This document shows positions 7,530-19,159 of a DNA stretch of 64,000 nucleotides, piece by piece (the first letter of the stretch is position 1; the number at the start of each line of letters is the position of its first letter). The stretch is taken from contig NZ_JAGYJH010000003.1 of NCBI RefSeq assembly GCF_018402285.1, forward strand, positions 1-64,000, in the 5' to 3' direction. The stretch comes from Hyphomonas sp. GTDB lineage: Bacteria > Pseudomonadota > Alphaproteobacteria > Caulobacterales > Hyphomonadaceae. Below the pieces are notes generated by a model. It was not told where the DNA came from. It did no database searches and saw nothing but the letters and a program-made list of their open reading frames with translations. The translations under genes and the position numbers were made by a program.

Positions 7530-8748
7530 CTAGTCTCGGATGAAGTCTGCTAAGCGTTCACCAACCTTCTCAACTGCTCCACGCACAGGATCATCATGCA
7601 GGTGGGCATACTGCGCAGTAGTCGCGGCATCCTTATGCCCCAAAAGTACACCGATGACAGGGAGGCTGGAACCTTCAGAGACAGCCACGCTGGCAAAGCT
7701 GTGTCGAAGGTCATGCAATCGCACGCCGCTCAACTCACACGACGCCCGAACAGCAAGCCATACCTTCGGGGTTCCAACATAGGGCCTGTCCGGCTTTTGC
7801 GAGGGGAAAACTAACTCGCCCCCTTGATACCTTGGCAACGAGGCAAGCACTGCCCGTGCAGCGCGGTTCAAAGGCCTTATCGTCTGCCCCGTCTTTGAGT
7901 CAGGCAACCGCAGAAATCCGAGGTCAAAATCGACATCCTGCCACCTGAGATTCTCAATTTCACCTTTGCGGCAGCCTGTCAGGATCAACAGCCGGATGAT
8001 CGAAACGCCTTGCGGATTTGCGCCATTCGCCTCGACCTCGCGCAGCGCCTCACCAAGCTGGATCAGTTCTTCATAATTCAGAAAACGAAGGTTCTTCTTG
8101 TCTTTGTAGCGCTTCACCCCTCGGACCGGATTCTCTGACATGAGGCCCGCTTCAACAGCGTAAGTGAAAATACCGCCGAGCAGACCAACAGTCCGCGATG
8201 CAGTGCCTTTACCGCCGGTCACAATGGCTCGCCCACGGTGGCCGGTTTTCACGTCCTTTGCCGTCTTGCCCATGGCTACATCCTGCATGAACCGCGTAAC
8301 GGTCGCTTTGGAGACGTCGGTTAGTCTAACGTGGCCAATTAGCGGTTTAATATGCCGTTCAATCCGCCCACGATCGGAGACCAAAGTCGAAGCTTTCTTT
8401 GTTGCAACGCCGCTGAGAAGATAGTCGTCACAAAGCTCAGTAATGGTGAGTACAGCTTTCGCGTCCTGTTTCTCCTTCGCCGGGTCCGCACCTTGCGCCG
8501 CCATACCAAGATCCTGCGTGCTTCTTTTCGCGCGGTCTCGACCGTCCAGGGTGAACCGTGAGCGCCGATGGTCATTCGCCGCGTCGGAGCCCTGCGGCCG
8601 GTTCCATGCCGGTATTGACATATATAGACCTTTCTCCCCCAGCGCAGACCTTTAGGCCGAACCCTGCAAGTTCGCCGTCCCAGAGGAACCGGTCCTTAGC
8701 TTCGGGCTTTGCCCTATCAACAACGGTTTTTGTGAGCTTAAGAGACAT
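7530..8748 (-). pseudogene. Island tyrosine recombinase (integrase), two N-terminal frameshifts
   Basis: The catalytic domain is complete in one frame: the first Arg in TGCRKGEIENLRW, HDLRHSFASVAVSEG with the HxxR pair, the second His in LLGHKDAATTAQYAH and the Tyr nucleophile in the same motif. The N-terminus starts at ATG 8748 with MSLKLTKTVVDRAKPEAKDR, typical of prophage P4-like integrases. It then changes frame near 8620, gives TIGAHGSPWTVETARKEARR in a second frame, and changes again near 8500 to join the catalytic frame. The enzyme would integrate the island at a tRNA gene; the tRNA-Arg half lies 130 bases upstream. Unless these are sequence errors, the island is locked in place. Confidence 0.8.
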
Positions 8749-9163: not shown

Positions 9164-9183
9164 GGCTACGCCTGCCTTCGGCT
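9164..9183 (-). repeat. 20-nt insert, copy 1 (end of orfB)
   Basis: Plus-strand sequence GGCTACGCCTGCCTTCGGCT between TTT and CAT. Deleting it rebuilds the family C-terminus GITPAMKLKLAA; with it the frame ends early after MSRRQA. It consists of two mini-hairpins, GGC-TAC-GCC and GCC-TTC-GGC. Confidence 0.75.
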
Positions 9184-9612
9184 CATGGCGGGGGTAATGC
9201 CGCCGATGCCCATGTTCGGGCGCTCATTGTTGCAACTCCATAGCCAACTGGTGGCGTGTTCCTTGACCTCCTCGATCGTGTTGAAGATGAACTGCCCAAA
9301 CCATTCCTGCCGGACGGTCCGATTGTAGCGTTCGACATATGCGTTCTGCTGCCGCTTGCCGGGCTCATGTAGAGGATCCCGATGCCACGCTTTGCTGCCC
9401 AGGTTTGCAGCGCGGCGCTGACATTTTCGGGGCCGTTGTCGACGCGAATGCCCATCGGCTTCCCCCGCCATTCGATGATCCGCTCCAGCGTGCGCACGAC
9501 GCGCGCTGCGGGTAGGCAGAAGTCAACCTCGATGGCGAGGCCTTCGCGGTTGAAGTCATTAATCACATTCAGTGTCCGGAAGGAACGGCCATCTCCAAGC
9601 TGATCTGCCATG

Positions 9613-9632
9613 AGCCGAAGGCTGGCGAAGCC
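9613..9632 (+). repeat. 20-nt insert, copy 2 (middle of orfB)
   Basis: Plus-strand AGCCGAAGGCTGGCGAAGCC between ATG and AAC, inverted relative to copy 1. Deleting it restores [14 protein letters not shown] in the transposase; with it the frame is shifted. Confidence 0.75.
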
Positions 9633-10107
9633 AACTCCATCGACCACATTTCATTCGGCCGCTCCGGAACGGCCAGAGGCTCAGGAACTTCCCGAACCAG
9701 CCGTTTTCTTGGCTTGATCCGCAGGTTCAGTTCCAGTTCGCAATAGATGCGGCGAACGCGCTTATGGTTCCAGGCGAAGCCTTTCACATTGCGCAGGAAC
9801 AGATAGCAAAGGCCAAAGCCCCAGCGCCTCGTCTTTTCGGACTTCGCCAACCCCACCAGCCAATCGGCGATCTCGGCATTCTCGTCCGACAGCTTCGCCT
9901 CATACCGGTAGCAGGTCTCGCTGATGCCAAAGGTGCGGCACGCCAGCGCCACAGACACGCCCTTCTTCCGAACAGCTTCTTTGGCCATCTCTCGTCTTTG
10001 AGATGGCCTTACGGCTTTTTTCCGAGAGCATCTCTCAATAACTGGTTCCGCATCGCCAGTTCGGCATACATCTTCTTGAGCCGGCGGCTCTCATCTGCCA
10101 TCGCGTT

Positions 10108-10386: not shown

Positions 10387-11508
10387 ATGAGGTTTGGTTT
10401 CAGTCGTCATGTCGTCGCTTTGACAGCTGTGATTTCGGTAGTTGGTGCGCCGATCGCAATTGCCTGCACCGGAATCTCGTTAGAGGCCCAGGACGGAACA
10501 ACTATCGTCGCCCGGACTGTAGAATGGGCCCTTGGCGATGCAGATCATGATACGCTTGTTTTGTTCCCGCGAAATTACGAATTCGTCGGCCAGACGCCTG
10601 AAGGTTACAATGGTCTCACTTGGACCGGCAAATACGGCTTTGCGTCTCTATCGGCATACGGAGAGCCATACGGACCGGATGGAATGAACGAGGTTGGATT
10701 ATATGTGGGCATGTATTATTTCCCCGATTTCGCCAGCTTTGAGGCTTACGATTCCTCTCAACGGGACAGCTCACTTAGCGTTGGCGACTTTATGCGCTGG
10801 ATGCTGTCCAATTTCTCAACAGTAGAGGAAGTCCGCGAAAATCTTGATAAAGTACGTGTCGTCAATGTAGACGATCCACGCTTCGGCGGAGCGGCTTTAC
10901 CGTTTCACTGGAAAATAGCCGACCCAACTGGTGAAAGCATCGTCATCGAGATTACAGACGGAGGGAAGATTGAAATCTTCAATACCGTCGAAGGTGTAAT
11001 CACTAATTCACCTGGCTACGGTTGGCACCTGACAAATCTACGCAACTATCTCGGCCTGTCGCCGAGTGCGGAGGCCCCGATAGAGGTGGATGGTCAAGTC
11101 TTCGCGCCACTCGGTTCCGGGTCCGGTTTGCGCGGTTTGCCGGGTGACTTCACGCCTCCATCACGCTTTCTCCGTGCCCTCGCTTTTACCGCCAGCGCAA
11201 GGCCGCTGGAGAAAAGCCAAGACGCCGTTTTCGAGGCATTCCGTATTCTTGATAATTTCAACATACCGGTTGGGAGCACAGGTGCTCCAGGGAAAATAGC
11301 GACCGATATCGAAAGCGCGACCCAGATTACAACGGTCAGCGATCTCGACAACAAGCTTTTTTATTTCCATACTATGTCAGATCGGCAAGTGCGCATGCTT
11401 GACCTCAAAAAAATCGACTTTGGCTCGATTGAGATGCAGTTGATCACCTCTGGTGTTTCTACAGAACAGACCATCCGAGAGATCTCTCCAAACGAAGGGT
11501 CACTTTAG
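10387..11508 (+). CDS. Secreted choloylglycine-hydrolase/penicillin-acylase-like Ntn hydrolase
   Basis: A 373-residue protein with a signal peptide (to about residue 26) directly followed by ACTGISL. Removal of the signal would free Cys27 as the N-terminal nucleophile, the hallmark of this Ntn family. Arg43 in IVARTVEW, Asn in [12 protein letters not shown] and the [15 protein letters not shown] stretch fit the other active-site positions. The usual Asp near Arg is Glu here (RTVEW). Relatives cleave linear amides: bile salts, penicillin V or, in Gram-negatives, acyl-homoserine lactones; the true substrate is unknown. Start chosen at 10387 with GAAGGA upstream. The gene is clearly less GC-rich than its right-hand neighbours and follows the IS, so it may be acquired. 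Confidence 0.85.
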
Positions 11509-11806: not shown

Positions 11807-12577
11807 ATGGATCTCGGACTTAAAGGCAAGAAGGCCATCATCCTCGGCGGCACACGCGGCATCGGCCGGGCGATCGCCGACACATTGGCGAAGGAAGGCG
11901 CACATGTCGCTGTCTGCGCCCGCAACGGCGATCAGGTGGCCGCCGCCGTGGCCGATCTCAAGATGCTCGGCGTCAACGCCACAGGCGCCTCGGTGGATGT
12001 GACGGACGGCCCCGCCCTGAAGGCGTGGATCGCTGACGCGGCTAAGACGCTCGGCGGCCTCGACATCCTCATCTCAAACGCCGGCGCCATGGCGCAGGGC
12101 AATGATGTCGCCGCCTGGGAATCGAACTTCAAACTCGACGTGCTCGCCGCCGTCAACGCCTTCGAGGCGGCGGAGCCCCTGCTCTCCACGGCCGCAAAAA
12201 CTTCCGGGGACGCAGCCTTCGTGATCATCTCCTCGATTTCTGCCGCAATGGCTGACCGAGGCGACTCCTATGGCCCGATCAAGGCCGCCCTCATCCACAT
12301 GGCCAAGGGCCTCGCCCGCCAGCATGCCAAGGCCGGCATCCGCGTCAATGTCGTCTCCCCCGGCATGGTTTATTTCGAAGGTGGCGTCTGGCACATGGTG
12401 AAGACCAACATGCCGGAATTCTTCGAGCAGGCGAACGCCCGCAACCCCACAGGTCGCTGCGCCACGCCGCAGGAAATCGCCAATGCGGCGGTGTTCCTCG
12501 CCAGCCCCGCCTCCTCCTACACGACCGGCGCCAACCTGATCGTGGACGGAGCAGTTTCAAACCGGGTGAACTTCTAG
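11807..12577 (+). CDS. SDR-family NAD(P)-dependent oxidoreductase
   Basis: A classical short-chain dehydrogenase of 256 residues: cofactor motif GGTRGIG near the start, NAG in ISNAGAMAQG, catalytic Ser in IISSISAAM and YxxxK as YGPIKAALIHMAKG, with the ending GANLIVDGAVSNRVNF. I chose the start at 11807 because GGAAGGA lies just before it and the protein then begins MDLGLKGKKAIILGG. The open frame extends further upstream, but that part looks non-coding. The substrate cannot be read from sequence. It stands alone, with about 300 bases of apparently non-coding DNA before it. Confidence 0.9.
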   Translation: MDLGLKGKKAIILGGTRGIGRAIADTLAKEGAHVAVCARNGDQVAAAVADLKMLGVNATGASVDVTDGPALKAWIADAAKTLGGLDILISNAGAMAQGNDVAAWESNFKLDVLAAVNAFEAAEPLLSTAAKTSGDAAFVIISSISAAMADRGDSYGPIKAALIHMAKGLARQHAKAGIRVNVVSPGMVYFEGGVWHMVKTNMPEFFEQANARNPTGRCATPQEIANAAVFLASPASSYTTGANLIVDGAVSNRVNF

Positions 12578-12608: not shown

Positions 12609-13874
12609 TTAGCGGCTAGCCAGGTGAGACCGGCGCTTGAAGGTCAACTCAGTTTCTTCGACCGGCCGGCCAGACATGTCCTCCGGGGTCGAATAGACCC
12701 GGACGGTCATGTCCTCTTCGGTCAGGCCGACATGCATGAACCCCCAGAGGGATCCTTTGGAAAAGGGATTGGCAAGCCCCGGATTGGCCGCCAGCTGATT
12801 GGCCATGAATTTCGGGTGAAGCGGGCGGTACTTGGACCCTGCCCCGGAGACCAGCGCGGGCAGCACCGGCGCGCCGGAAACTCCCTCGCTGCGGCAATCA
12901 TCGGTGTAGACTTCCAGCATGTGATCATCGCCGGAAATGTAAGCGTCGGCATGTTTGCACACGGCGATCATGTACAGCGACCGCAAGGCATGGGCCTTTT
13001 CAAACTTGCTGCCCCCGCCCGACCAGACCGCATGATGGCCGATGACAATCTTCCAGTGCGCCTCTGAAGACGCCAGCGCCTCTTCCAGCCACGCGACCAT
13101 CTGCTTCTCGCCCTCTGTCGCTGGTTTCACGAAGTCGTCCCATTCCTCCATCTCGCCGGTGCGCGCCTCGCGGCCCTCCGTATCCAGATTGTCCACATGC
13201 ACGCTTGTGCTCGCCAGCAGCATCTCTGTGTCGATAACGAAAATCTCGACAAAGCCTTCCATTCCGGCCGGAGAGGCGCGGTAGTAGAAATCCGGCATGG
13301 TGAAATTGGGGTGCTTCTGGAAATAGTCCATCTGCGCCGCAGTGGCCTCGCGCGAGACGCGCCAGTCATGGTTTCCCATCATCGCATAGATGGTGAAATC
13401 CTCCACGCCTTTGCCAAGCGTGCCATAGGGCTGGTCCAGCATGTCGTAGAAGCGCCGCTCATCGCTGATCCCGTCAGCCCCCAGCGTCGCGCCATCCGGA
13501 TAGATGTTGTCGCCCACCATCGTGGCAAAATCACACCCGAGCTTGCGGCACACTTCCTCGGCAGCAAAGGCAACCGGATACATCCCGCTGGCTTCCATAT
13601 ACCCGCCGATCGCTGCCTCAAACACAAAGGGCGTTGGCCGGAAGCCGGTCATGTCGGCATTGCGCTCAAGCCAGTCTTCCGCCTGGGCGGCAAGATAGCT
13701 GCTCAGCGTACGGTGAGGCGTCTCGTCCTCGTCGAGGCGCTCATAGGACGGAATGTAGCCCGTATCGCCCAGAACCGCGAAATTGGCCCTGCGGTCTTCC
13801 GCGCCGGCAGGCCCGGAGTGGACGCACGCCGCAAGGCTGAGGGCGCAAAGCGCGGTCATGAGGTGTTTGTACAT
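12609..13874 (-). CDS. Purple acid phosphatase-like metallophosphoesterase lipoprotein
   Basis: A 421-residue calcineurin-fold phosphoesterase. The signal ends in LSLAACVHSG, a lipobox, so it should be membrane-anchored and face the periplasm or outside. Metal-binding motifs appear in order: VLGDTGYIPSYE, MVGDNIYPDG, MMGNHDW, VIGHHAVWSGGG and ISGDDHMLE, as in tartrate-resistant acid phosphatases. It lies downstream of a TonB-dependent receptor on the same strand, with a terminator-like hairpin between, and the pair is preceded by a PHO box. It most likely releases phosphate from organic esters under phosphate limitation (inference from motifs and context). Confidence 0.85.
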   Translation of the reverse strand: MYKHLMTALCALSLAACVHSGPAGAEDRRANFAVLGDTGYIPSYERLDEDETPHRTLSSYLAAQAEDWLERNADMTGFRPTPFVFEAAIGGYMEASGMYPVAFAAEEVCRKLGCDFATMVGDNIYPDGATLGADGISDERRFYDMLDQPYGTLGKGVEDFTIYAMMGNHDWRVSREATAAQMDYFQKHPNFTMPDFYYRASPAGMEGFVEIFVIDTEMLLASTSVHVDNLDTEGREARTGEMEEWDDFVKPATEGEKQMVAWLEEALASSEAHWKIVIGHHAVWSGGGSKFEKAHALRSLYMIAVCKHADAYISGDDHMLEVYTDDCRSEGVSGAPVLPALVSGAGSKYRPLHPKFMANQLAANPGLANPFSKGSLWGFMHVGLTEEDMTVRVYSTPEDMSGRPVEETELTFKRRSHLASR

Positions 13875-13924
13875 GGGTCTGTCCTGTCTTTGTTTCGGGG
13901 ATCACCACCCCGCCAATGGCGAAA

Positions 13925-13947
13925 GGCCCCGGCGGTCTGCCGGGGCC
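13925..13947 (-). terminator. Hairpin terminator or attenuator between receptor and phosphatase genes
   Basis: GGCCCCGGC and GCCGGGGCC form a 9-bp stem with a 5-base loop, followed by TTT on the minus strand. It lies after the receptor stop codon and before the phosphatase start, so it could reduce expression of the downstream gene relative to the receptor. Confidence 0.65.
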
Positions 13948-13960
13948 TTTGCTCTTTGTA

Positions 13961-16816
13961 TCAGAAGTTGGCCTTGAAGCCGAACTTCGCCGTCCAGCCA
14001 TACTCTTCATACTGCAGGAGGCGGTCACGGCCGGGGCCAGTCTGATAGGCCGTATAGGTTGCGTCGTTGATGTTTACGAGTTCTCCGAACAATTGCAGGT
14101 TCGGGGTGAGCCGGTACTTTGCGGAAGCATCAACCTGGAAGTGCGATTCGACATACCGGTCACTTTCGGCGTCACTTTCTATTTCATCAAGGTAGGACGA
14201 GCGGCCCGTGCCCGAAAGGCGCAGGCTGAGAGGCCCTTTATCATAGCCAACCGCGATGTTGAAGGTGTGCTTGGATGAGGTCGGCAGCGGGATTGACCGT
14301 CCCAGCACATCACCCGACGCGTCCGTGTAGGTATAGTTCACGTTTGCCAGCAGTCCGTCAAACGGCGCCGGCAAACCGGTAAAGGCCTGCGCGTAGGAAA
14401 GCTCGATACCTTTCACTTCGGCCGTTTCACCATTGATCGGGATAGTGGCCTCATCATAGGCTATGCCCTGAAAGGTGCCGTTCTCGAACCCTGCATCAAC
14501 AATGAAGTCTTCAATGCGCTTGTAGAAGACGCCGCCCTGGAGCACGGCTTCGGGTGCAAAATAATATTCCAGTGTCGCGTCGAAATTGGTCGCGCGGTAG
14601 GGGTCAAGGTCCGGATTGCCGAACTCGCCTTCACGCTCGTTCTCGTCATTCTCCTCAACAACGAAGAATGGGGCAAATTGTTTGAAATTAGGACGAATGA
14701 TTGACTGGAAGGCGCCGAAGCGTGCGACGATTTTTTCATTTACATCGTAGCGGATATTCAAACTTGGCAGGACGTCGGTATAATCGTTGCTAAACGAGAC
14801 CGGCGTAATGAAGAGCGTGTCCTCCTCGAGGCTGAGGCCGCCGACAATTGCACCTTCCTCGACCAGCTCCGTTCGGTTGCCGCGGGTATCGGTCTTGGTA
14901 TGCTCTATGCGAATGCCGGCGATCAGACGCAGCGGGCCTGACTGGTACTTGCCCATCACATAGCCGGCCAGGATATCCTCGTCAGCTTCGAAGCTTTCAA
15001 CTGTCGAAACAAACTCCGTCTCAAGTTCGTTCAGTTCAAAAGCACCGAGGCCATTTCTGGAAACAAAGTTCTTAACGGCTCCGAGGTCAGGCAGAACGCC
15101 GAGATCGGCAAGCCCATAGGTCTGGGTTCCCGCCACGTCGGCAAGGGTGAAGTCGCCATCAAAGTCTTCGTAAAGATCGATCACAAAGTTCTGCGTTTTT
15201 TCACGCTGGCGAAGCTTCAAGCCGCTCTTGATTTCAAATGTCCCTCGATCGACGGCGAACTCGCGCGCCACGTCAATCTTGAACGAGGCTTCCTTATCGT
15301 CTGCGTCTTCGCGCGTGGTTCTCTCCAGAAGCGTGAAGCCGTAATTGGTGGGATCGGAAAATGCCGCCGCCCCAAAATCGATATTATAGAGCGGTCTGTT
15401 CATGTCGGAAAAATCGAAAGTCACGCCCAGCTCACCGGGAGACCGGAAGCGTTCCTGGAACCGGATCGGGTCGATTGAGCCTCGCTCTTTCTGGTCGGCT
15501 TCCGAGTAGGCGGCATCATATGTCACCGTCCAAGGGCCGGTGAAGGTCTCACCACCAAGCGAAAAGGTACGGATGGTCTGAGCCTCACCGCGATCTTTCA
15601 GGTCGCGGCGAACCTGAATGCGGCCATCGGCTGAATCGAACGACGCTGTGTTTTCTGAGCCTGCAAAAGGCTCTTCGCTCATGCCAAAAATCAGTCGACG
15701 ACGTAGTTCGGTATCGTCAAACTTGGAATAAAGCCCACGCGCATAGAGAGTGGTACTATCGTTTAGTCGGTAGTCTGCGCCGAGTGTTATTCCATAGCGC
15801 TCCCGGCGTACGTCATAGTCACGGTACTCAACGTCTTCAGCGTAGGCAATGCCGTCATCGGTCTCGCTCCAGCCATCCATTTCAATATTGTCGGTCGCGA
15901 ATTCGCGATCATAGTAGCTAAACCCACCTGCAATACCCAGGTCGTCGCCAAACAGCTTGATAAAGTCGAAGCTTCCCTTAGGCGACGTTTTACCATTCAG
16001 GTCGTTGTACGACCCTTCCAGCGACGCTGAAAAATAGTCTGACTTGCGGTCGAAGGCGCTTGTGGTGTTAATTTCGATCGAGCCACCGATTGTGTCGGCG
16101 TCCATGTCCGGGGTCAGCGATTTCTTGATCTCGATCGACTCAATGAGCTCCGACGGGATCACGTCCAACGCTACGGCGCGCTCATCGCCGCCCGTTGCCA
16201 GTACGCGATTACCGTTGATCGAAGAGGAGTTGAGGTTTGGATCGAGGCCGCGCACGGAGACGAAACGCCCTTCGCCCTGGTCATTCAGGACGTTGATGCC
16301 GGGCGCGCGGCGTAGCGCTTCTGCAACGTTCTGGTCCGGGAACTGACCAATCGCGTCACGCGTCAGAACTGTTTCAACCGTATCGGACGCTCGCTGACGA
16401 GCAATTGAGCTCAGCAGGTTGGACTGCTGGCCGATCACCAGAACGGTTTCCATCACGGCCGTGTCGCCGTCTGTGCCGCGCGGCGCGAGCGCGAAGGACT
16501 CGGCCAACGTGCCGTCTTCGGAAACCGTGATCACGCGGGACTGCTCTTCAGCGCCGGGATAGCGGACCCGCAGGGTGTAGGTGCCCGCCGCAATGTTGGT
16601 GAAGCGGTAAGACCCGTCCTGGCCGACTTCGGCGCTCTGGTTGATTTCCACCAGAGTGACTTCGGCCCCGCGCAGCGCGCGTGTGCCGGTCGCATCGGCA
16701 ACCTCACCGGTGATGGTGCCAGCGCTGGCAACCGGAACGGCGACGGCAGTGGCGAGAATGCTGGAGGCAAGCAGGCGCGCCGTCAGGCCGCGGCCGAAGA
16801 ATGAAGCGTGGAACAT
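13961..16816 (-). CDS. TonB-dependent receptor with N-terminal carboxypeptidase-regulatory-like domain
   Basis: A 951-residue outer membrane receptor. Signal peptide to about residue 32, then a small beta domain (residues 33-110: TGTRALRGAEVTLVEINQSA, YTLRVRYPGAEE), a plug domain (DTVETVLTRDAIGQFPDQN; FVSVRGLDPNLNSSSINGNR) and a long beta-barrel ending in the typical terminal Phe (AKFGFKANF). The layout matches the large Caulobacter/Xanthomonas receptor family, which imports varied substrates. The PHO box 170 bases upstream and the phosphatase downstream suggest a phosphorus-containing substrate. The N-terminal extension resembles a CarboxypepD-type domain rather than an anti-sigma signalling domain. 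Confidence 0.92.
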   Translation of the reverse strand: MFHASFFGRGLTARLLASSILATAVAVPVASAGTITGEVADATGTRALRGAEVTLVEINQSAEVGQDGSYRFTNIAAGTYTLRVRYPGAEEQSRVITVSEDGTLAESFALAPRGTDGDTAVMETVLVIGQQSNLLSSIARQRASDTVETVLTRDAIGQFPDQNVAEALRRAPGINVLNDQGEGRFVSVRGLDPNLNSSSINGNRVLATGGDERAVALDVIPSELIESIEIKKSLTPDMDADTIGGSIEINTTSAFDRKSDYFSASLEGSYNDLNGKTSPKGSFDFIKLFGDDLGIAGGFSYYDREFATDNIEMDGWSETDDGIAYAEDVEYRDYDVRRERYGITLGADYRLNDSTTLYARGLYSKFDDTELRRRLIFGMSEEPFAGSENTASFDSADGRIQVRRDLKDRGEAQTIRTFSLGGETFTGPWTVTYDAAYSEADQKERGSIDPIRFQERFRSPGELGVTFDFSDMNRPLYNIDFGAAAFSDPTNYGFTLLERTTREDADDKEASFKIDVAREFAVDRGTFEIKSGLKLRQREKTQNFVIDLYEDFDGDFTLADVAGTQTYGLADLGVLPDLGAVKNFVSRNGLGAFELNELETEFVSTVESFEADEDILAGYVMGKYQSGPLRLIAGIRIEHTKTDTRGNRTELVEEGAIVGGLSLEEDTLFITPVSFSNDYTDVLPSLNIRYDVNEKIVARFGAFQSIIRPNFKQFAPFFVVEENDENEREGEFGNPDLDPYRATNFDATLEYYFAPEAVLQGGVFYKRIEDFIVDAGFENGTFQGIAYDEATIPINGETAEVKGIELSYAQAFTGLPAPFDGLLANVNYTYTDASGDVLGRSIPLPTSSKHTFNIAVGYDKGPLSLRLSGTGRSSYLDEIESDAESDRYVESHFQVDASAKYRLTPNLQLFGELVNINDATYTAYQTGPGRDRLLQYEEYGWTAKFGFKANF

Positions 16817-16986
16817 TGGTAAACCCTTCCGCTGAAAACTGCATCGGCGGGTAACAGGGCAGTGTCTCAGACTTGCGACAGTTTTGCGTACTTATTGTTG
16901 CAACGCTTTGATCGTATCCGGAGCGTTGCAGGATCGCCACTAAGATACATTTTTATGTATTTTTATTTTTAGTTACTGCAGGAATA

Positions 16987-17015
16987 ATGACGCTGGAATG
17001 ACACTTTCCTGACAG
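16987..17015 (-). promoter_or_regulatory. PHO box (PhoB site), three 11-bp repeats
   Basis: On the minus strand CTGTCAG, GTGTCAT and GCGTCAT begin at 17015, 17004 and 16993, exactly 11 bases apart and separated by 4-base AT-rich spacers (GAAA, TCCA). This matches the known PhoB consensus of CTGTCAT direct repeats. It stands about 170 bases before the TonB receptor start and just after the stop of the antiporter gene. Confidence 0.8.
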
Positions 17016-17022
17016 CGCGCCC

Positions 17023-18879
17023 TCAGGACTGGTCACTGATATCCTTGCCGGGCGTTGATTCGGAAAATCCGCTGGCAACCGCCCGGCGCTTACCCACGAG
17101 CCTGCCGGCGCGCGCCCCTGCCCGGCGTATCAGATCGGCCATCAGGACGCCAAAGCCGGGGTCCTCCTCGCCGATCACGATACCGACCGTGCCGACCCCG
17201 CCGGCATCGTCGAGCGCGCAAACCACGATATCCACATCGCCGGCAGACACCCGGTCGCCAACGACCGGATTGCCATCAAACGCCCGGTCCAGATACTGGC
17301 CGGCCGTCTGGCCTTCGGCCGCGTCAATGTCCTCCAGCCCGTACTGGCGCACGAGGTCGGACATCTTCGTCGCGCCCTTGAGCCGGAACTGGATATCGGA
17401 GTCCGCCGTCATCTCTTCCCAGGGGCTGGCATAAATCTGGTCAAGCAGGCGCACCCGCCGCGCGGCGGCAAAAAGGTAAACCTGGTCATCGGCCTGAAGC
17501 GGGCCGATCGTATGGACTGAATAGGAAAGCCCGTCGCGGATCACCATGACCGGCCGCGCCCAGCGCGGGACGCGCTCGCCCCTGGCAATCGCGCTGTCGG
17601 GATGGATCTTGTAGCCGACGAGTTCCATCTCTGCCGCGCCGCGCAGTTCAAGCTCTACCCGGTCCACCAGCCCCTGCTCGGAGGGCAGGCTCATCTTCAG
17701 GAGCTTGGCTGCCGGCTGGATCGTCCAGCCCTGAACCAGCAGCGACGCCAGCACCATCACAAACACGACGTTGAAATAGAAACTGCCATTCTCGATGCCT
17801 GCAAGTCCCGGCAGGATCGCCAGCAGGATCGATACGGCCCCCCGTAAGCCAACCCAGCCGGTAAACAGGGTTTCCCGCGAGCGGAAATCGAACGGCAGCA
17901 GGCACAGCCAGACGGCCAGCGGCCGGGCGACGAAGATCAGCACACCCGACAGGACCAGCGCCGGCAAGAGAATGTCCGGAAACTCCGAAGGCGTCGCCAG
18001 GAGGCCGAGCGCTAGGAACATCCCGATCTGGGCGAGCCAGGTCATGCCGACCTGAAACCGGCGCAGCCTCTGGGCAAACCGGACCTTCTGGTTGCCTGCC
18101 ACCACCCCGGCCACATAGGCAGCCAGGAACCCGCTGCCTCCCAGGAGGGCGCACACAGAGAAGACGACCAGCGCCGCGGCAAGACCCGTGATCGGGTAAA
18201 GGCCCGGATCGAGGTTCACGAGCTTGTTGAGCAGCCAGGAAACCCCGAAGCCGCCGATTACGCCAAACAGAAGGCCAAGGCCCATCTGCTGGATAAAGGT
18301 GAGCAGCACTTCAAATCCGAAGAGAGCACTTGTGCCGGCATCGGCCGCAATCAGTTCGATCAGCAGGATGGTAAGGAAGATCGCCATCGGGTCGTTCGCC
18401 CCGGATTCGATTTCCAGCGTCGAGCCGACCTTCTCCCTCAGCCTTATCCCCCCTGCCCGCAGCAGGAAGAACACAGCAGCCGCGTCCGTGGACGCCACGA
18501 TCGAGCCAAGCAGGAACGCCTCCAGCCACCCGGCCCCGAACAGGAAGTGGGCCGCAACCCCCGTCAGCCCTGCGGTCAGCAGAACACCAAACGTCGCCAG
18601 ACTGAGCGCGGGCGCCGCCGCCACGCGGTAACTGCGCAAAGGCGTCTCGAAGCCGCTGTCAAAAAGGATGATGGCGAGGGCAAGGGAGCCGATGAAGTAA
18701 GCCACCGATCCGCTGTCAAACTCGATGCCGAGCAGGCCGTCTTCGCCTGCCAGAAGTCCAATCCCGAGAAAGACGAGTAGCAAGGGCGCGCCGAAGCGCT
18801 GCGAGACCAGGCTCGTCAGGGCCGCGAGCGTCACGAGCGCAGATCCGATCAGGATTGCAATGTTGACAGATTCAAACAG
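17023..18879 (-). CDS. nhaP2: Potassium/proton antiporter, NhaP2 (CPA1) type
   Basis: About 619 residues: an N-terminal membrane domain with around 12 helices (ESVNIAILIGSALVTLAALT onward; STLEIESGANDPMAIFLTIL holds the transport motif with the ND pair), then a cytosolic tail with a TrkA-C-like regulatory domain (ELRGAAEMELVGYKIHPDSA) and a further C-terminal CorC/HlyC-like part (DIDIVVCALDD region). This is the NhaP2/CvrA arrangement, a K+/H+ exchanger. The reading frame is open to 19020, but the homology begins at FESVNIAILIG. A perfect AGGAGG (18888-18893) lies 8 bases before a CTG at 18879, so a rare CTG start is the best fit; an upstream start remains possible. Confidence 0.85.
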   Translation of the reverse strand: MFESVNIAILIGSALVTLAALTSLVSQRFGAPLLLVFLGIGLLAGEDGLLGIEFDSGSVAYFIGSLALAIILFDSGFETPLRSYRVAAAPALSLATFGVLLTAGLTGVAAHFLFGAGWLEAFLLGSIVASTDAAAVFFLLRAGGIRLREKVGSTLEIESGANDPMAIFLTILLIELIAADAGTSALFGFEVLLTFIQQMGLGLLFGVIGGFGVSWLLNKLVNLDPGLYPITGLAAALVVFSVCALLGGSGFLAAYVAGVVAGNQKVRFAQRLRRFQVGMTWLAQIGMFLALGLLATPSEFPDILLPALVLSGVLIFVARPLAVWLCLLPFDFRSRETLFTGWVGLRGAVSILLAILPGLAGIENGSFYFNVVFVMVLASLLVQGWTIQPAAKLLKMSLPSEQGLVDRVELELRGAAEMELVGYKIHPDSAIARGERVPRWARPVMVIRDGLSYSVHTIGPLQADDQVYLFAAARRVRLLDQIYASPWEEMTADSDIQFRLKGATKMSDLVRQYGLEDIDAAEGQTAGQYLDRAFDGNPVVGDRVSAGDVDIVVCALDDAGGVGTVGIVIGEEDPGFGVLMADLIRRAGARAGRLVGKRRAVASGFSESTPGKDISDQS

Positions 18880-19159
18880 GGTCCCGACCTCCTCGTCTTT
18901 GTCGCGGCGGGCAAAAAATGATTTGTGACAGATCGCTCTGAAGCTAGGGTCTGAGACATGGGCAGGCCAGTAGCAATTCGGTATTTCCAGCCCCGCCAAG
19001 CCTGATTGCCATGCAGGCATGCAAAAACATCACGAAAACGTGAGCGCAGCTCAGACGGAATCTGAGGCTTCAATCGTTTAAGGAAGCGCGCGGCAGGTTA
19101 ACTGCCAACTGCAGGCTGTTGCCTTGATCAGTAATGTTCTTCGTCTACTTCGGTACAAG

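Follow-up and report, generated by a model that had tools for sequence, protein, structure and literature searches.

Two adjacent genes of a Hyphomonas sp., one for a TonB-dependent receptor and one for a lipoprotein resembling purple acid phosphatases (PAPs), probably form a module under PhoB control that scavenges phytate or lower inositol phosphates. On our best reading, the PAP-like enzyme would partner a β-propeller phytase or, here, take its place. This proposal draws on a promoter box, the gene order, the protein families, an intergenic hairpin, a linkage that recurs in other organisms, and co-occurrence with phytase genes, all of them observed directly in the DNA and proteins compared.

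The unit lies on the minus strand of the window, which is the whole stretch of 64,000 nucleotides that was analyzed. From its upstream end it comprises a PHO box of three CTGTCAT-like units with a period of 11 bases (16987 to 17015, by motif match), a leader and promoter stretch (16817 to 16986), the receptor gene (13961 to 16816, by family profiles), a GC-rich hairpin whose T tail, read in the direction of the genes, is weak (13922 to 13950, by folding), and the gene for the PAP-fold metallophosphatase lipoprotein (12609 to 13874, by PF00149). The gap between the two genes is 86 bases and holds the hairpin. A potassium/proton antiporter gene (17023 to 19020, minus strand) is the upstream neighbor and lies outside the unit; its stop is 7 bases from the start of the box, which in turn starts 199 bases ahead of the receptor start. 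An earlier note on this DNA had described three CTGTCAT-like units spaced exactly 11 bases apart before a TonB receptor followed by an acid phosphatase-like lipoprotein, and that arrangement was confirmed in the sequence. The other identified neighbors of the pair are genes for an SDR dehydrogenase and a choloylglycine hydrolase (10387 to 11508). A tRNA-Ser called by ARAGORN within the dehydrogenase gene (minus strand, 12107 to 12196) is probably false. Upstream of the hydrolase sit an integrase-like frame (7530 to 8621) and overlapping transposase-like frames (9166 to 9988), recognized by reading the frames only, which are perhaps the remains of mobile DNA.

Receptor and phosphatase in other genomes

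The receptor is a protein of 951 amino acids with a plug domain (PF07715), a barrel domain (PF00593), and a CarboxypepD_reg extension, and it scores 602 bits against TIGR01782, whose cut-off is 310; it is thus a TonB-dependent receptor of the TIGR01782 type. A siderophore reading was considered and rejected, since the best PDB matches, with E values of 1.5e-8 or weaker, are to plug regions, those of BtuB and the colicin I receptor, and are uninformative. In the genus, we took the best receptor match per genome by protein similarity alone (E ≤ 1e-150; 26 genomes, window included). Nineteen of these receptors have a phytase within 1.5 kb and two, in the window and in genome G042, have a PAP beside them, while the remaining five (G045, G046, G043, G039, and G064) are near neither. 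Six records in a plasmid collection match the receptor at E ≤ 1e-100, and in all six a phytase, a PAP-type phosphatase, or both lie directly downstream. Three Pseudoalteromonas records have a PAP directly after the receptor, and these same three are the only plasmid matches of the PAP at E ≤ 1e-10. In Catenovulum adriaticum the receptor is followed by a gene that carries the annotation tartrate-resistant acid phosphatase and, after it, by a phytase. On an Acinetobacter pittii plasmid, phytase annotations follow an unannotated receptor in two pieces, and an unannotated A. junii record encodes the same protein at 97.6% identity. Because two of the Pseudoalteromonas records (98% identical in the receptor gene) and the two Acinetobacter records are near-identical, the plasmid records represent about four independent cases. 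On the A. pittii plasmid (L175), the receptor and phytase, both in pieces, are followed by tolQ, tolR, and tonB-type genes.

Six receptors from other genomes of the class proved 48 to 58% identical to the window receptor over nearly the full length; they had been chosen at phytase loci, which makes their adjacency a matter of construction and leaves the similarity as the test. Together with the window receptor they fall in one group of 13 rows (97/100). Three further receptors near a phytase (G254, G116, and G369) lie outside that group. The window receptor belongs, then, to a family that neighbors phytase elsewhere, and no phytase adjoins it here. The β-propeller phytase gene of the window genome (G000:C3:397791-398790, locus L116) sits about 380 kb from the unit on the same contig and is read in two frames, as a result of either a pseudogene or an assembly error.

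The antiporter gene is a syntenic anchor in five relatives (G042, G045, G046, G057, and G059), where it was recognized by reading the open frames. In G042 it is accompanied by the same receptor (77% identical) and a PAP in the same order. In G057 and G059 the flanking antiporter is again present along with a PAP (86 to 87% identical), but the receptor is a different one, of 924 amino acids (30% identical). G045 and G046 retain the receptor in this position and lack a PAP. In G051 the last 42 residues of a window-type receptor (83% identical) remain before the PAP, which is followed by a phytase. The earlier note had proposed a search for the pair with PHO boxes in relatives. The pair was recovered in the same order in G042, with the other receptor in G057 and G059, and, as more distantly related versions, in the three Pseudoalteromonas records, which supports the view of it as a unit. 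Receptor and PAP were thus probably paired before these species diverged, and each of the two has been exchanged or lost among them.

The receptors that stand in at this locus have relatives of a similar kind. The 924-residue receptor is 47 to 49% identical to nine Sphingomonas/Sphingomonadaceae plasmid receptors among the matches listed; by coordinates, seven of those nine adjoin a phytase and two do not. In G051 a receptor of a third type is transcribed divergently from the PAP region. It shares 59% identity with a receptor of Pseudoalteromonas sp. THAF3 that has a metallophosphoesterase and then a phytase downstream, and in G167 another of its relatives stands divergent to a phytase. Each of the three receptor types seen close to this PAP thus has phytase-linked relatives elsewhere, which we regard as the strongest pointer to inositol phosphates. 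The earlier note had put no substrate to the receptor; comparison would narrow the field to phytate and the inositol-phosphate class.

The PAP itself is sparsely distributed. At an identity of at least 66% it occurs in 7 of 105 genomes of the family, five of them from the genus (window included) and two from another genus; weak, short matches (in G018, G086, and G088 and at one other site of the window genome; E values of 6e-4 to 3e-6) were not counted. A search of 385 genomes across the class at E ≤ 1e-40 returned the window genome only. All 13 PAP-bearing genomes found, comprising the window, G042, and 11 further loci, contain a PF02333 phytase gene, the window copy being the frame-shifted one. 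A phytase gene is present in 15 of the 385 genomes of the class, window included. The co-occurrence is confounded by descent, because 39 of the 42 genus genomes (window included) hold a phytase anyway, regardless of PAP. PAP and phytase are neighbors in G051 and in Luteimonas wenzhouensis, where the order is receptor, double-domain phytase, sugar-type ABC transporter, PHO-like box, and PAP. The binding protein of that transporter is nearest to the rhizopine family, far below the cut-off. Another record, L045 (LNFC01000012.1), is titled Acidobacteria bacterium and has the same genes as the Hyphomonas-like G051; it is probably a mislabelled MAG.

Other contexts were also observed. In three Erythrobacteraceae (L044, L046, and L047), a PAP homolog lies directly behind a serine palmitoyltransferase gene, assigned by analysis in L044 and by like sequence in the other two, and in two Ponticaulis it lies near dnaX- and recR-like genes, as judged from the frames; no receptor was seen beside it in any of these five. 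A sphingolipid reading suggested by the palmitoyltransferase neighbor was rejected, since those three genomes hold a phytase elsewhere beside a window-type receptor and the identified window neighbors include no such enzyme. Homologs with neither a receptor nor a phytase seen next door (L040 to L044, L046, and L047) would also fit a general scavenging of phosphomonoesters, with the receptor importing some other phosphorylated compound, such as a sugar phosphate, a nucleotide, or a glycerophosphate, and the PAP serving as an unspecific acid phosphatase. PAPs are commonly broad in substrate, and TIGR01782 receptors take many substrates. We nevertheless consider such a role unlikely, if credible, because the receptor family lies near a phytase or PAP in 21 of the 26 genus genomes (window included) and in every one of the six plasmid records, and because the three distinct receptor types near this PAP share phytase-linked kin.

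The PAP-like phosphatase

The phosphatase has 421 amino acids, and its nearest solved relative is pig purple acid phosphatase (E value of 7.6e-12). A structural model with a mean pLDDT of only 69, built with 12 sequences, has the PAP fold, matching human PAP (2bq8) with a Z score of 28.2 over 282 residues and 1ute with a Z score of 27.7. Identity to these tartrate-resistant/purple acid phosphatases is 23 to 25% in the structural alignment. Wheat purple acid phytase appears lower among the structural matches, with a Z score of 20.7, and the shared fold shows no function.

There are seven positions that we take to be the canonical PAP metal ligands, including both histidines of the GHxH motif. 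Six of them, D37, D122, Y125, N168, H280, and H318, are invariant in all 13 homologs. The first histidine of GHxH is an aspartate in all 13, D316 in the window protein, giving GDDH in alignment with the GHDH of rat PAP, and the set of seven ligands is thus incomplete. We use the name PAP-like because of this departure. The corresponding motif is GHEH in the Pseudoalteromonas and Catenovulum phosphatases and GHDH in the metallophosphatases at three of four other loci read, and the change from His to Asp therefore seems to be specific to this branch. It may tune the site or disable it, and because one canonical metal ligand is changed, the predicted enzyme could be altered or inactive. GAP50 also appears among the structural matches and, according to its PDB title, is an example of a PAP fold with another role. 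A uniform GDDH, set against GHxH in rat PAP, three of the four other loci, and the Pseudoalteromonas homologs, would suit a binding or structural protein of that kind that is not a hydrolase at all. We judge this improbable, given that the other six ligand positions do not vary and that an aspartate can bind metal.

A lipobox, LAAC, occupies residues 14 to 17 and predicts a lipidated Cys17. Among the 13 homologs a lipobox is clear in seven, absent in five, and doubtful in Luteimonas. The motif argues only for an envelope lipoprotein, and the dephosphorylation at the cell surface that the earlier note had predicted is unsupported as stated. The other half of that prediction, the coupling of the receptor to a phosphatase, is supported at the level of sequence.

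Promoter and intergenic hairpin

On the minus strand, the units of the PHO box read CTGTCAG (17015 to 17009), GTGTCAT (17004 to 16998), and GCGTCAT (16993 to 16987). We had taken at least two upstream CTGTCAT-like 7-mers at an 11-base period as a PHO box, and the region before the window receptor has three. The pattern TGTCA-N6-TGTCA-N6-TGTCA, allowing up to two mismatches, has four matches in the 3.04-Mb genome, compared with two for a reversed-pattern control. The window box, with one mismatch, is the best of these and the genome's sole match with no more than one. It agrees with the consensus at 17 of 21 letters, a score not reached once when the 320 upstream bases were shuffled 200 times with their dinucleotides preserved. 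These results support the control of the receptor through a PHO box that had been predicted. The genome encodes one PhoB above the NCBIfam cut-off, whose gene follows pstC- and pstA-like genes; a PstS-like protein is encoded at another place, and weaker repeats lie upstream of pstC (13/21) and pstS (12/21). A separate PHO-like box (13/15) was observed in this genome at G000:C3:796138-796164 (about position 3138 of L084), approximately 14 kb from pstS and some 100 bases before the gene for a 1,093-amino-acid outer-membrane barrel protein with a CarboxypepD_reg domain.

The earlier note had named lack of conservation of the box before orthologous receptors as refuting, and the four orthologs give a mixed picture. 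The window genome has the whole box, G042 has two near-perfect units, G045 has two weaker ones, and G046 has a single unit; a shuffle test on the whole box was significant for the window copy only. We also scanned 36 upstream regions, belonging to receptors, phytases, PAPs, and the palmitoyltransferase genes, of which there were three. For several receptors the start is the first Met of the open frame, and some distances are therefore rough. A PHO-like box with p ≤ 0.010 was found in six: before the window receptor, the G051 phytase, the Luteimonas PAP (with the box oriented opposite to the gene), and an Altericroceibacterium receptor-phytase pair (L157), and at L164 and L074. The other 30 regions lacked a box at that level, including those of G042, G045, and G046 by whole-box score; alignment nonetheless places two units in G042 and in G045. 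AraC-type and GGDEF/diguanylate cyclase genes adjoin the receptor in P. xiamenensis, Catenovulum, A. pittii, and THAF3.

Closer to the receptor, a proximal element at 16865 to 16901, GCAACAATAANTACGCAAAACTGTCGCAAGTCTGAGA, is nearly identical ahead of all four orthologous receptors. A 26-base stretch covering part of the element and its edge has one copy in the window genome at up to three mismatches, and the element was rejected on that count as a genome-wide receptor motif. It may be a promoter, a regulator site, or a leader RNA. Its constancy while the box decays could mean that the PHO-like repeat is fortuitous and that the proximal element drives the receptor. This seems to us quite improbable: the box is the best match in the genome, two units are kept in place in G042 and G045, and boxes occur at some other phytase or PAP units. 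It is very improbable that the receptor takes a metal-phytate complex (iron or calcium) from which the phosphatase frees the metal, for although TonB-dependent receptors classically import iron chelates and phytate binds metals strongly, the promoter carries a PHO box and the identified neighbors are the antiporter, the dehydrogenase, and the choloylglycine hydrolase.

The hairpin between the genes has its stem at 13947 to 13925, and the 66 bases that surround it have a folding energy of -34.3 kcal/mol (z score of -3.5). A terminator scan called it on the plus strand only, opposite to the genes, and the scan gave no excess of terminator-like sites (three, versus a shuffle mean of 4.9). Read in the direction of the genes, the hairpin has too short a T tail, so the earlier label of partial terminator is a fair one. 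The hairpin is kept in all four loci with the receptor-PAP pair here (the window genome, G042, G057, and G059), and a similar one is found at the end of the receptor gene in G046, which is without a PAP. It may be a partial terminator, an attenuator, or an RNA-stabilizing stem, and we infer partial read-through.

Proposed pathway and known systems

A PhoB-controlled module for phytate or lower inositol phosphates would work as follows. Under phosphate starvation, PhoB-P would bind the three-unit box, and the receptor would be transcribed together with, at a lower level through the leaky hairpin, the phosphatase. The TonB-energized receptor would carry an ester of the inositol-phosphate type over the outer membrane. 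Phosphate would then be freed by the PAP-like enzyme, which would be held by its lipid anchor, in the simplest arrangement on the periplasmic side, and would act beside a β-propeller phytase or, here, instead of it. PstSCAB would import the phosphate.

The β-propeller phytase stops at an inositol trisphosphate. We tentatively raise the possibility, to which we give distinctly less than even chances, that bacterial phytate use has a missing second enzyme in the PAP-like lipoprotein, which with its altered two-metal site would remove the phosphates left after β-propeller phytase and would be fed by a phytase-type receptor. If this is true, the window species, with its own phytase frame-shifted, lives on partly dephosphorylated inositol phosphates left by its neighbors. 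Phytate is a main form of organic phosphorus and the phosphate store of plants; to our knowledge, its uptake across bacterial outer membranes and its final dephosphorylation are poorly tested. The recurrent grouping of receptor, β-propeller phytase, and PAP-like enzyme, in which the receptor as well as the enzyme has been exchanged, gives an orphan receptor a candidate substrate class and offers a clear enzyme assay.

We met no description of a receptor paired with a PAP-fold lipoprotein in the literature searched, which took in only a minority of subscription papers. The unit would work like a receptor-phytase module but fails its defining feature, an adjacent phytase. In Flavobacterium johnsoniae, a member of the Bacteroidetes, a receptor (Tbdt) and phytase pair, Fjoh_1368/Fjoh_1367, is induced by low phosphate and higher under phosphate depletion (PMC8115612). 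That pair is alike in joining a receptor with a phosphate-ester hydrolase; its partner enzyme is a β-propeller phytase (PF02333), whereas that of the window is a PAP-fold lipoprotein. For Citromicrobium bathyomarinum JL354, phytic acid has been proposed as the substrate of a TonB-dependent receptor adjoining a phytase; the portion of that article available to us names no PAP, and its main text is without the word phosphatase (PMC3400609). The PhoB regulon of Caulobacter crescentus includes TonB-dependent receptors, a phytase, and phosphatases, and no receptor-PAP pair is named in the accessible portion of the account (PMC11208175).

The runs in Catenovulum adriaticum and Pseudoalteromonas sp. 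THAF3 are alike in having a receptor and a PAP- or tartrate-resistant-type phosphatase as direct neighbors. They differ in having a phytase in third position and divergent genes of the AraC and GGDEF/diguanylate cyclase types, and their phosphatases, with GHEH, are only 27% identical to that of the window. The window phosphatase shares the fold and six of the seven metal-ligand positions with the tartrate-resistant/purple acid phosphatases 2bq8 and 1ute, and differs from them in the change of a ligand His to Asp and in being a bacterial lipoprotein. In the PusCD phosphate utilization systems of Bacteroidetes, a lipoprotein of the SusD/PusD type lies beside the receptor; the neighbors in the window are instead the PAP and the antiporter.
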